From positions 1 to 36,078 of the forward strand of contig JASUSV010000014.1 of the NCBI GenBank assembly GCA_030445865.1: DNA of 36,078 nt, written 5' to 3'. The notes beneath the pieces were generated by a model, which saw only the letters and a list, made by a program, of their open reading frames with translations, was not told the origin of the DNA and ran no database searches. The translations under genes were made by a program, and so were the position numbers. This DNA is from Clostridia bacterium. Its GTDB lineage: Bacteria > Bacillota > DSM-521 > Neomoorellales > Neomoorellaceae. Below, piece by piece: positions 15,255-20,417 of the stretch. Position 1 is the stretch's first letter; every line of letters begins with the position of its first letter.

Positions 15255-16588
<1,334 letters not shown>

Positions 16589-16630
16589 TGGACTACCTCC
16601 TTTGTCCATATTTTCCAATTATACCGGCCT

Positions 16631-16736: not shown

Positions 16737-16964
16737 CTAGGCCAGCCGTCCCAAATCTACCTGCACGCGCTCGGCAGTAGCTTCCGGCTGGGGCACGGGC
16801 AGGCCGTCTTCTAGAAGACCCTGGATATGCAGCTTTATGGCCTCGGCCATGTTCTCCCGTACTTCCTCCAGCGTGGCTCCTGTTGCTACACAGCCCGGCA
16901 AGTCGGGGGAATAGGCTGAAAAGTTTTCGCCCGCCCGCTCAATCACAATCAGGTATTCGGCCAT
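16737..16964 (-). CDS. hicB: HicB-family antitoxin
   Basis: A 75-aa protein with the partial RNase-H-like HicB fold pattern: EYLIVIERAGENFSAYSPDLPGCVATGATLEEVRENMAEAIKLHI. It would bind and neutralise HicA. The short C-terminal tail lacks an obvious helix-turn-helix or ribbon-helix-helix, so autoregulation may be weak or may occur through the complex. Its ATG shares a base with the hicA stop codon (TAATG), the usual toxin-first coupling. Carried inside the integrative element, where it may stabilise maintenance. Confidence 0.9.
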   Translation of the reverse strand: MAEYLIVIERAGENFSAYSPDLPGCVATGATLEEVRENMAEAIKLHIQGLLEDGLPVPQPEATAERVQVDLGRLA

Positions 16965-17161
16965 TAGAGCTTACCCTCCTTTAACCCGGCTTGTTTAAGG
17001 ATACTGTTTAGCGTTCCTGGTGCCAGGTCATCGCCCAGATTTCCTGCAATAGTTACCCTTCCTGGCTTTGTAGGGTGCTTAAACTGCCTGTGGCTCCCCC
17101 TCTGGCGCACCATAAACCAGCCGTCCTCCTCAATCAACTTTATGACCTCACGCACCTTCAT
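16964..17161 (-). CDS. hicA: HicA-family mRNA interferase toxin
   Basis: A 65-aa double-stranded-RNA-binding-like toxin. MKVREVIKLIEEDGWFMVRQRGSHRQF... contains the catalytic histidine H24 in GSHRQFKHP; the tail LNSILKQAGL is typical. Known members cleave mRNA and tmRNA on the ribosome. ATG at 17161 is preceded by GAGCAGG. It is followed with one-base overlap by hicB. Full length and apparently intact. Confidence 0.9.
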   Translation of the reverse strand: MKVREVIKLIEEDGWFMVRQRGSHRQFKHPTKPGRVTIAGNLGDDLAPGTLNSILKQAGLKEGKL

Positions 17162-17208: not shown

Positions 17209-17451
17209 TCAACGGCCTTGCTCCTCATCCGGCACATAGACCAGCAAATCCCCAGGCTGGCAATCGAAATACTTACAAAGCTTATCTATAACCTCCACAG
17301 TGGTGTTGTACGGCTTCTGACGTGGGTCAGTAAGTTTAGCTAAGGTGTTGCGATTAATGCCGGTATCTTTGGAGATCTCAAGTAGCGGAATGCGTCTTTT
17401 CTCTTTTTGCTGTTTTTCGTCCCACAGGTTTTTTACACGGTAAACAATCAA
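17209..17451 (-). CDS. XRE/Cro-type helix-turn-helix regulator (HTH_26-like)
   Basis: An 80-aa DNA-binding protein. IVYRVKNLWDEKQ, then ISKDTGINRNTLAKLTDP as the helix-turn-helix, then VEVIDKLCKYFDCQPGDLL, is the HTH_26 pattern of small phage/element repressors. I choose TTG at 17451, with AAAGGAGTGA and seven bases of spacing, because family members start at this IVYR point; an ATG at 17478 and one at 17505 lie upstream without a good site and within the operator region. It is divergent from the 17608 gene, and two TTTGC-(N)TATGC-type palindromes lie between them, so it probably controls both directions. Confidence 0.82.
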   Translation of the reverse strand: MIVYRVKNLWDEKQQKEKRRIPLLEISKDTGINRNTLAKLTDPRQKPYNTTVEVIDKLCKYFDCQPGDLLVYVPDEEQGR

Positions 17452-17492
17452 GCTTGCATCACTCCTTTCAATTACCATAATAGCATTTTTGC

Positions 17493-17562
17493 TTTGCGTA
17501 TGCAAATAGTAAAAGGCTTTTGCAAAAAGATATTGACAGAATAGATTTGCCTATGCTAAACT
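17493..17562. promoter_or_regulatory. Divergent control region: two operator palindromes and a plus-strand promoter
   Basis: TTTGCGTATGCAAA (17493-17506) and TTTGCCTATGCTAAA (17546-17560) are related palindromes 53 bp apart, about five helical turns. A plus-strand promoter TTGACA (17533-17538), 18 bases, TAAACT (17557-17562) is overlapped by the second site in its spacer and -10 box. Further GCAAA words flank it. The divergent XRE-type regulator is the obvious candidate binder; this is inferred. Confidence 0.65.
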
Positions 17563-17607: not shown

Positions 17608-18111
17608 ATGCTTAACAATCTAACCCAGGTTACTCAGGAAGGGAAAGGGGAACTGATAACGGAAATGCCTTACAACAATCTAGAGGAAGTCGTTAAGTTG
17701 GCAGCGGAGAATCTTGAGCGAAAAGACAGTTTTCTCCTGAAAGTCTGGATGTATCAGGCTTATCCAGAATTACATCCATTTAAGGGAAAAATTGGGATTA
17801 TAGCTAATGGGTCTTGTCTGGAGCGAATTGGGGTAAAGTCGTGGAATTTTGTTGTAATTCAACTCGGTAAATTTGATTATAAACCGGATGATGTTGTATT
17901 GGTGATCACTGCATTTAAAGGCCGGTTAATACGGATGCTAAAAGCATTCAATAAATGGATTGAGAAAGCCCTCATTGCCGAAGTCGGAACTCGCTATACT
18001 GATTCGAGTAAAGACTTCTCCTTCCTTGTGGCCGGTAGTCTTATTCTGGGAAAAGCAATTTATGTTAGTAGTGGTCTTGATACGGGTACTAAAATTATTA
18101 CAAAATTGTAA
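17608..18111 (+). CDS. Element-borne protein of unknown function (167 aa)
   Basis: I do not recognise a family. The protein starts at ATG 17608 behind AGAGGGGGG, is soluble by composition, and mixes helical (LEEVVKLAAENLERKDSFLLKVW) and beta-like segments (KIGIIANGSCL, FVVIQLGKFDY, DVVLVITAFKG). Only one cysteine is visible and no metal or P-loop motif. It is the sole gene of a transcript: an operator-overlapped TTGACA promoter in front and a strong intrinsic terminator directly behind. Direct control by the divergent repressor suggests it is made only when repression is lifted, as for an element induction or defence gene, but that is inference. Confidence 0.7.
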   Translation: MLNNLTQVTQEGKGELITEMPYNNLEEVVKLAAENLERKDSFLLKVWMYQAYPELHPFKGKIGIIANGSCLERIGVKSWNFVVIQLGKFDYKPDDVVLVITAFKGRLIRMLKAFNKWIEKALIAEVGTRYTDSSKDFSFLVAGSLILGKAIYVSSGLDTGTKIITKL

Positions 18112-18146
18112 GGCCGGGGGCACAAACTCCCGGCCTTCTCCTTTTA
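18110..18146 (+). terminator. Intrinsic terminator of the 17608 gene
   Basis: AAGGCCGGG (18110-18118) pairs with CCCGGCCTT (18129-18137), followed by a CTCCTTTT tract. It starts at the last base of the stop codon. Confidence 0.85.
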
Positions 18147-18387: not shown

Positions 18388-18621
18388 ATGCGCAAAAAGA
18401 CCATCCACTGGATAGCCCTAGCAGTAGGGATTTTGGAACTACTCACAAACATCCCTGCCGTAATGCATGGCTACAATATAGCCTACGCCTTACTGAATGC
18501 CTGCAGCGCGTACCTCGTCATTTACTTCTTACTTTACACAGCAGCCTGGGTGTTTAGTATCCTTGCCAGGGTTGCCTCCCGATTCCGGGAATCCTCGAAG
18601 GATGACCGTACCGAGCTTTAA
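18388..18621 (+). CDS. Small two-helix membrane protein (77 aa)
   Basis: Starts at ATG 18388 behind an excellent AGGAGGTG. Two long hydrophobic stretches (about residues 8-26 and 32-60, the second long enough for one or two spans) are followed by a basic, then acidic, cytoplasmic-type tail (ARVASRFRESSKDDRTEL). No known family recognised. It ends 41 bp before the WYL-nuclease gene and has no terminator between, so the two are probably co-transcribed. It could be a membrane partner of that protein, which has its own C-terminal anchor. Confidence 0.7.
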   Translation: MRKKTIHWIALAVGILELLTNIPAVMHGYNIAYALLNACSAYLVIYFLLYTAAWVFSILARVASRFRESSKDDRTEL

Positions 18622-18662: not shown

Positions 18663-19661
18663 ATGTCAGTTATGGTGGAGAAGGTACAACGTATATCGAA
18701 GGCAATCGAGTGTAAAAGGAAAATAAGTTTTAGTTATGTAGATGCTGAAGGGAAAAAGACAAAGCGGGCAGTGTGCCCTTTGGTCCTGTTTAAGTATAAA
18801 TCTATGGGTGAGACACGGTATTACCTGATGGCTTTTTGCGAATTAGATTTTAATTACAGGACATTTCGCCTAGATAGGATAAAAAAGATACACAGTTTAT
18901 CGACTGTTTTCAACCCGAATGAGTTTTCTGATTTTGATTCTTACGAGAAATTAAAGGGGGTCTTTACACGAAAAAGAGTGCGCGTAATTAAGAAGGTTGA
19001 TGGGGGAGAGAAGTTCGAGAGACAAGTGTGGTCACAATCTTTTCCAACCGGTGCTACCAGAGTTTATGGTTCTTTTGATGGTGATATAGAGATTGAGGAA
19101 CGCATTTATGGGAATTTTAACGATAGTTATCCTAAAGAGTGGTATTCCCGCAAGGTTAAAGGTAATTACTGTTTATGTCGTTCTCCTCTTGAGGAAACGG
19201 AATTCGAGAAATTGGATAAATCCGACGAAGTTGTTGCTTACGAGGTCGAGCCATTTAAAATTCGTTACTACGCAGGTTCAAAAGTTAGATATTATATACC
19301 CGACTTACTTATTACATACAAGGATGGAAGACGTGTAATAGCCGAAATTAAAACGCTCTCCGATGTTATGTTAAAGGAAAATCAAGCTAAGTTTAAGGCG
19401 ATAGAACAATATGCTAGAGAACACGGTTATAAATTTGAGGTCTGGGCGCGCAGAGGTATTGGGCGATTAACGGGAGCTATTTTCGATGCTTCAGATGAAG
19501 GGAACTATTCATCCTGGGAAAGTGCCGTAGAAGTAGCTGCACGTAGAATTGAGAAAAACGAAACCGAACGTCGTAGAAGGCAATTTTGGGATGAATGGGG
19601 CGGTTTAATTGTAACTGCAATAGTAATTGTATTTCTTTTGATAGTTTTATTTTTGCGGTAA
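18663..19661 (+). CDS. WYL-domain protein fused to a TnsA-like PD-(D/E)XK nuclease with C-terminal membrane anchor
   Basis: A 332-aa protein with three parts. Residues about 8-80 resemble a WYL domain: ISFSYVDAEGKKTKRAVCPL, YYLMAFCELDF and YRTFRLDRIKKI; the usual N-terminal helix-turn-helix of WYL regulators is absent. Residues about 192-265 resemble the TnsA N-terminal endonuclease: YEVEPFKIRYYAG, then YIPDLLITYKDGRRVIAEIKT with P213-D214, E228 and K230 as the PD-(D/E)XK triad, then an AIEQYAREHGYKFEVWARR tail. Residues 313-331 form a single hydrophobic span at the very C-terminus. Residues 81-190 are unassigned. Start ATG 18663 has a distant GGAG; ATG 18672 is possible. Domain calls are by pattern; function in DNA cleavage or anti-phage defence is inferred. 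Confidence 0.72.
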   Translation: MSVMVEKVQRISKAIECKRKISFSYVDAEGKKTKRAVCPLVLFKYKSMGETRYYLMAFCELDFNYRTFRLDRIKKIHSLSTVFNPNEFSDFDSYEKLKGVFTRKRVRVIKKVDGGEKFERQVWSQSFPTGATRVYGSFDGDIEIEERIYGNFNDSYPKEWYSRKVKGNYCLCRSPLEETEFEKLDKSDEVVAYEVEPFKIRYYAGSKVRYYIPDLLITYKDGRRVIAEIKTLSDVMLKENQAKFKAIEQYAREHGYKFEVWARRGIGRLTGAIFDASDEGNYSSWESAVEVAARRIEKNETERRRRQFWDEWGGLIVTAIVIVFLLIVLFLR

Positions 19662-20281
19662 TCGTTAAAGAACAATCTTGCTGGCACCCTAAAAAGGTTT
19701 AGACTAGAATGTACGACTACGACATTAACATTGAACTAAACGGTGATTTTATGCGGCCGGGAGCCAAGTAGTCAGGACCGAGTCGCTTGTCTACCTAGTT
19801 TGTCACTACAGGAGCCCCATGGCAAATTAATGTAAGCACCTGTTCGCCTGCCAAACTGGGACATCGCGGAGTTGTCGGAGTTAGGCTTTGAATGCTCATT
19901 ATTCAGCCGACAGCTTATGTTTCCAGATCTTCCAATAGGGCCGGTTTCACGAACCACTCCCCCGGCCGTACGTATGCTCCAAAACGAGTGCGGCTGCATT
20001 TTTTTTCGCTGGGGTTTGCCTGATTTTCGATTAATATTTGGCAGAAATACGCCCCCGCTTTCATGAAGGGCCTTATAGTGAACAGGGTCCGGGTTTTTTG
20101 CAGTAAGAGCGTATGGCGAAATGACTCTTTAGTATACGAAAATGCTGCAGTTTCTACTGCAGTAACGTAATGAAAATGTGGGTGAAGAGGGGTGATGGGA
20201 GGTTATTCCAAAACCCCGGAGGCCTTGATTCCTGGGTGGTAGGAGTGAGTACGGGTTAAGGGTAGTGAAGGCTCCTGTGCA
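19662..20281. other. 620-bp gene-poor right arm of the element
   Basis: No open frame here has a credible ribosome-binding site. The 75-codon minus-strand frame at 19772-19999 and a 64-codon plus-strand one overlap each other without family resemblance. Several imperfect inverted repeats occur, for example GGTTTCACGAACC (19943-19955 area) within a larger GGCCGG/CCGGCC pair. The right 21-bp repeat lies at 20145-20165. It could be a decayed insertion, a structured RNA or attachment-site DNA; I cannot decide. Confidence 0.4.
20145..20165 (+). repeat. Right copy of the 21-bp element-end repeat
   Basis: Same 21 bases and orientation as 15381-15401, ending 116 bp before the attR core. Flanking bases differ, so the identity block is sharply limited to the 21 bp. 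Confidence 0.75.
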
Positions 20282-20327
20282 ACTCTTAATCAGCGGGTCG
20301 TGGGTTCAAATCCTACCTGGCGCACCA
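20282..20327 (+). repeat. attR core: partial tRNA-Lys copy (46 bp)
   Basis: Exact copy of the tRNA-Lys 3' half (15285-15330) with no D arm or 5' acceptor strand before it, so it is not a tRNA gene. It marks the original chromosomal 3' end of the tRNA gene. A weak stem AACGCCA/TGGCGTT (20340-20346 with 20370-20376) just beyond may be part of the old tRNA transcription end. Confidence 0.93.
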
Positions 20328-20417
20328 GGAAAAACTAAGAACGCCAAAGGTTTTAGAACACAATGCCCCTGGCGTTTATCTTTACCGCAGTATTTTGGTC
20401 ACAAATTGGTCCCAGCG

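Follow-up and report, generated by a model that had tools for sequence, protein, structure and literature searches.

A WYL and TnsA-like nuclease fusion with a C-terminal membrane anchor is a candidate single-gene defense or element-exclusion protein

In the window (the whole 36,078-nucleotide stretch of DNA that was analyzed), we found that the gene at 18663..19661 (+) encodes a 332-amino-acid protein containing a WYL domain, a TnsA-like nuclease domain and a C-terminal membrane anchor, and that this gene is carried as cargo on a 5-kb element of a spore-forming bacterium. Judged from its sequence, this protein is best read as a membrane-tethered nuclease for defense or element exclusion, with a SNIPE-like layout but unrelated domains. 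SNIPE is a membrane-anchored nuclease that cuts phage DNA during injection and is prevented by its anchor from cutting host DNA (Nature 2026, PMC13190303). As a WYL domain, a DNA-cutting fold and an anchor occur here in one chain, following the same logic as SNIPE, we favor a nuclease that is tethered to the membrane and acts on incoming DNA. We assign a probability of about 0.5 to the whole explanation, namely a one-gene cargo module in which a membrane-held, WYL-gated nuclease cuts such DNA.

Domains and predicted active site

WYL domains are nucleic acid binders. The N-terminal segment that the original prediction had called WYL-like is a WYL domain spanning residues 7-76 (18681..18890, +), as identified by Pfam PF13280 (E 1.3e-15, 57.6 bits, curated cut-off 21.8) and by alignments to the PafBC chains; PF13280 also matches proteins P0002 and P0003 above its cut-off. 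The reading frame runs as originally predicted and has an alternative start, the ATG at 18672, which is where the homologue in G023, a genome from another family, begins. In PafB, single-stranded DNA (ssDNA) binding is abolished by mutating R181, Y196, the R211/R214 pair, or R181, R204 and R208 together (PMC11804915). Counting along an HMMER alignment, we matched these positions to R35 (R181), Y54 (Y196), R66 (R208), R69 (R211) and R72 (R214) of the 332-residue protein, with D62 at the position of R204, such that five of the six PafB ssDNA-binding residues are kept. A more distant homologue from Priestia megaterium keeps four of these PafB-matching residues and has a lysine in place of R69.

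The TnsA-like PD-(D/E)XK nuclease domain covers about residues 172-263 (19176..19451, +). Pfam PF08722 matched residues 188-260 (E 5.6e-14, 52.9 bits, curated cut-off 26.5), the NCBIfam TnsA-like subunit model matched the protein with an E-value of 1.4e-14 but under that model's own cut-off, and a PHROGs search matched the phage head-closure family phrog_218 (E 7.9e-13). Profile searching thereby found both homologies, WYL (PF13280) and nuclease (PF08722), on which the original prediction depended. The protein was modeled with AlphaFold2 using phage relatives (mean pLDDT 54.7). Confidence was good only over the nuclease and the C-terminal helix and low over the WYL part and residues 36-145, and we therefore draw no conclusion from the model on how the WYL and nuclease domains are arranged. 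TnsA was the best solved fold for the confidently modeled part (1f1z/1t0f; Foldseek rank 1; top VIA-align match with Z 8.7 over 104 residues, model residues 163-280 on TnsA residues 45-168). Holliday-junction resolvases were close behind TnsA among the structural matches, and the ligand-gated nucleases Card1 and Can2 were also among them.

When the protein was aligned by HMMER with a solved TnsA-TnsB fusion, the C-x-S-x-L-E, PD and E-x-K motifs lined up. Given this alignment and the structural match, we conclude that the predicted active site consists of E177, D214, E228 and K230, all of which are intact, with E177 lying within a CRSPLEE motif. The nuclease residues proposed earlier (P213-D214, E228 and K230) were thus correct, and E177 is the fourth residue of the site. 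The domain also contains an NQAKF motif at residues 240-244; the four predicted active-site residues and NQAK (240-243) are invariant in comparison with four phage proteins.

The last 20 residues of the protein form a hydrophobic helix following ERRRRQFWDEWGG, and the transmembrane segment itself comprises residues 312-331 (19596..19655, +) with RRRR before it. The 19-residue Kyte-Doolittle maximum of the protein is 3.14, and a maximum of 2.0 was reached in 68 of 20,000 shuffled sequences. A hydrophobic tail is found in five of five family members (Kyte-Doolittle maximum 1.72-3.14, with the Priestia protein the weakest at 1.72), whereas the 17 other TnsA-like proteins used as controls all lack an anchor (Kyte-Doolittle maximum 1.58). 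The hydrophobic C-terminus noted earlier is therefore a membrane anchor beyond chance. By the positive-inside rule, the basic residues ahead of it suggest that the N-terminal domains are cytoplasmic.

The element carrying the gene in the window

The gene had been proposed to lie on a small mobile element, and the element is indeed bounded exactly by a 52-nt direct repeat (98% identical) that is a duplicated tRNA-Lys 3' end. One attachment repeat (15285..15336) lies on the tRNA-Lys side, in the 3' half of the tRNA-Lys gene (15255-15330), and the other (20282..20333) forms the distal, right end; these two copies were the only ones found in the genome. We also observed an identical 21-nt palindrome, CTGCAGTTTCTACTGCAGTAA, at 15381-15401 and 20145-20165, just inside both element ends, where it can form a stable hairpin; these palindromes are possibly integrase or excisionase arm sites. 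The tyrosine integrase (15293..16618, -; PF14659, PF00589 and frame translation) is in two pieces, 15890-16618 and 15293-15769, and has a single in-frame TAG at 15890-15892 (-), with the rest intact including the catalytic tyrosine region. Unless this stop reflects an assembly error, the integrase can probably no longer mobilize the element.

Beyond the integrase, the element encodes a HicB-like antitoxin (16737..16964, -; PF15919, E 8.5e-13), a HicA toxin (16964..17161, -; PF07927, E 5.1e-24) and a Cro/C1-type HTH regulator (17209..17505, -; PF13443, E 3.5e-14). These are followed by a 167-aa ORF of no known family (17608..18111, +) with a strong terminator-like hairpin after it (18110-18137); Pfam, NCBIfam and PADLOC returned nothing for this ORF, PHROGs gave a weak match only, and the ORF is not common to the homologous loci. 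A 77-aa protein with two transmembrane segments (18388..18621, +) ends 41 nt upstream of the 18663..19661 gene, with a good ribosome-binding site (AGGAGGTG), and the two genes are probably co-transcribed here. Phage structural genes were not found nearby, and we rejected a role as a phage head protein.

Homologues, selection and rarity

One homologue, a WYL, TnsA and anchor protein with 78% identity, is encoded in G023 on a separate 2.86-kb element, which is flanked by perfect 47-nt copies of a tRNA-Thr end and contains integrase remnants only. Between the window element and the G023 element, DNA similarity is confined to 18670-19666 (83.6% identity), breaking off precisely where the gene begins and ends, and elsewhere only the tRNA genes are similar. 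As these two independent tRNA elements share one gene, we conclude that this single gene makes up the functional unit. The original prediction had left open a single-protein or a two-protein system; the one-gene unit stood, and the pairing with the 77-aa membrane ORF was rejected, as that ORF has no counterpart at any homologue's locus, including those of G023 and Priestia. As a separate observation, the region immediately beyond the distal tRNA-Thr repeat of G023 contains an integrase C-terminal remnant (L032 11508-11699), which suggests repeated integrations at this tRNA.

The dN/dS ratio of the gene is 0.27 overall, 0.21 for the nuclease, 0.26 for the WYL domain and 0.09 for residues 263-310, the 48 before the anchor. 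The gene is under purifying selection; with this ratio and with intact frames, we rejected the interpretation that it is a relic or pseudogene.

A third WYL, TnsA and anchor protein, 31% identical, is encoded on the Priestia megaterium plasmid pFDU301C. Its neighbors include a homologue of Bunzi-type BnzB (E 1.1e-65), a weak match to PDC-M09A, dut and a gene for an SprT-like metalloprotease, and complete type I restriction-modification genes (hsdR/S/M) lie beside it. The defense-island link comes from this one plasmid locus. In the same island, next to dut, we noted a protein that combines a dCTP-deaminase-like domain with membrane segments at its C-terminus (L002 6116-7222, -) and is possibly a membrane nucleotide-depletion protein. 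E177, D214, E228 and K230 are complete in all three WYL-bearing members. With three such members, conservation is thin.

Two further members, from two species of one genus (G357 and G821), consist of the nuclease and anchor without a WYL domain and lie at different loci, as short TnsA-plus-anchor proteins (L033 6020-6598 and L061 6043-6654). A different catalytic residue is missing in each (E228 is replaced by V in G357 and D214 by T in G821), which argues that nuclease activity is not the sole thing that selection keeps in the wider family. Actinobacterial plasmid proteins carry a sigma-like HTH with the same nuclease type and no anchor; at L059 2284-3498 and L060 2347-3294, the HTH, judged by eye, is of sigma-region-4 type and the TnsA-like nuclease contains NQAKF or NQNKF.

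When we searched 398 Bacillota genomes, the fusion was found in G000 and G023 only and the short form in G357; extending the search to two classes (399 and 151 genomes) brought in G821 only. The family is very rare, with about four occurrences in roughly 950 Bacillota genomes, and two of these lack the WYL domain and carry a damaged active site. Searching with short exact peptide patterns, a method that cannot prove absence, found no WYL-TnsA relative in species-genome contigs and, in viral contigs, phage nucleases only. The neighbor survey of homologues called for in the original prediction found that all five loci lack tnsB and tnsC, so homologues are not always neighbors of these transposition genes.

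Proposed function and comparison with known systems

The proposal of a membrane-tethered sensor-nuclease, taken apart from its two-protein version, fits the domains, the catalytic residues, the conserved anchor, carriage by two tRNA elements and one plasmid defense island, and the lack of tnsB and tnsC. We propose that the C-terminal helix would hold the protein in the cytoplasmic membrane with the WYL and TnsA-like domains facing the cytoplasm. The WYL domain may bind a nucleic acid as its ligand, with single-stranded or otherwise exposed DNA the most likely candidate, and in its ligand-bound state would position or switch on the PD-(D/E)XK nuclease. The nuclease would then cut DNA entering or lying at the membrane, whether injected by a phage or transferred as a plasmid, and the anchor would keep the enzyme away from the host chromosome. 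Phages or plasmids are probably the target of a cutter posted in this way. Small integrative elements and plasmids may carry the gene because the host, or the element itself, would be protected from competitors.

The main rival to this proposal, which we regard as unlikely, is an abortive-infection effector, in which a ligand produced during infection binds the WYL domain, inhibition of the nuclease is lifted and host DNA is cut, with the cell killed or arrested. WYL domains sense nucleic acids and nucleotides, HicAB is also on the element, and the match of the nuclease fold to Card1 and Can2 fits ligand gating. However, the anchor would limit access to the chromosome, as it prevents host cleavage in SNIPE, and a ligand-making partner is not conserved beside the gene. 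The carriage of all three WYL-bearing copies on mobile DNA, together with the role of TnsA itself as an element-processing nuclease, is consistent with an element-maintenance or conjugation/replication accessory that processes its own element's DNA or excludes competing elements and has no phage role. We consider this rather improbable, as the integrases are unrelated or decayed, the tRNAs differ and the window integrase contains a stop, yet the gene is under purifying selection; nor is a relaxase, replication or transposase partner conserved.

It is also improbable, in our assessment, that the protein is a membrane-bound regulator that uses its WYL domain and nuclease fold to bind nucleic acid in signaling, with cleavage not the main function. 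Retention of the anchor in the two WYL-less relatives despite their lost catalytic residues is in line with such a role, as is the occurrence of WYL domains mostly in regulators, but the protein has no DNA-binding HTH, and all four catalytic residues are kept among WYL-bearing members only 31% identical. The PF08722 match and TnsA fold could point to a transposition protein that cuts transposon ends with TnsB. We rejected this very improbable role, as the element moves by a tyrosine integrase, tnsB and tnsC are missing from all five loci, and the C-terminal, TnsC-binding domain of TnsA is missing, with no Pfam match to that family up to E 1 and a long helix and transmembrane segment in its place.

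The membrane-tethered nuclease reading also bears on novelty. With somewhat less than even confidence, we put the protein forward as a new single-gene system directed against phages or plasmids, in which a TnsA-like nuclease, gated by its WYL domain and anchored by its C-terminal tail, would cut incoming DNA at the membrane and would be independent of SNIPE in origin. A PADLOC search returned no system-specific match; the hits were confined to generic WYL models and to the WYL portion of a DRT-associated protein. In the open-access literature, we found no description of a WYL-TnsA fusion, nor of the TnsA-like nuclease, C-terminal anchor and one-gene mobile carriage seen here. WYL-nuclease fusions as such are already known, as fusions to Mrr-like REase and HNH were listed in 2014 (Makarova 2014, PMC4012209). 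The WYL-Mrr-like REase resembles the protein here in joining WYL to a restriction-type nuclease as a predicted ligand-gated defense enzyme, whereas the WYL-enzyme fusions in the relevant passages of PMC4012209 include no TnsA-like nuclease and no WYL-nuclease-transmembrane layout.

Compared with Tn7 TnsA (1f1z, 1t0f), the protein shares the N-terminal catalytic fold and active-site residues but lacks the TnsC-binding C-terminal domain, has no TnsB or TnsC, and adds the WYL domain and transmembrane segment. The closest nuclease sequences in phage contigs are the phage T4 gp4-like head-completion nucleases (phrog_218; PMC7824862), which have RS..E, PD, E-x-K and NQAKF in common with it but belong to phage structural gene clusters and have neither WYL nor a transmembrane segment. 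If our reading is correct, the phage-type branch of TnsA-like nucleases would gain a role beyond transposition and capsid filling. The WYL regulators PafBC and BrxR share a WYL domain with conserved basic pocket residues, but they are HTH transcription factors and the protein here has no HTH.

SNIPE is likewise a single protein with a transmembrane anchor, a DNA-binding domain and a nuclease, with the orientation of the protein here predicted by the positive-inside rule only. There is no sequence relation between the two, neither DUF4041 nor GIY-YIG was found in a Pfam scan of the 332-aa protein, and PMC13190303 does not mention WYL or TnsA. If the reading holds, discrimination of self from non-self by position, through a membrane-tied nuclease, would have arisen at least twice from unrelated domains, with the nucleic-acid sensor here in the same chain as the nuclease, and the gene, being small and self-contained, is easy to test. 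The two layouts differ throughout, as SNIPE has an N-terminal transmembrane segment, a middle DUF4041 and a GIY-YIG nuclease, whereas the protein here has an N-terminal WYL domain, a TnsA-like PD-(D/E)XK nuclease and a C-terminal transmembrane segment.
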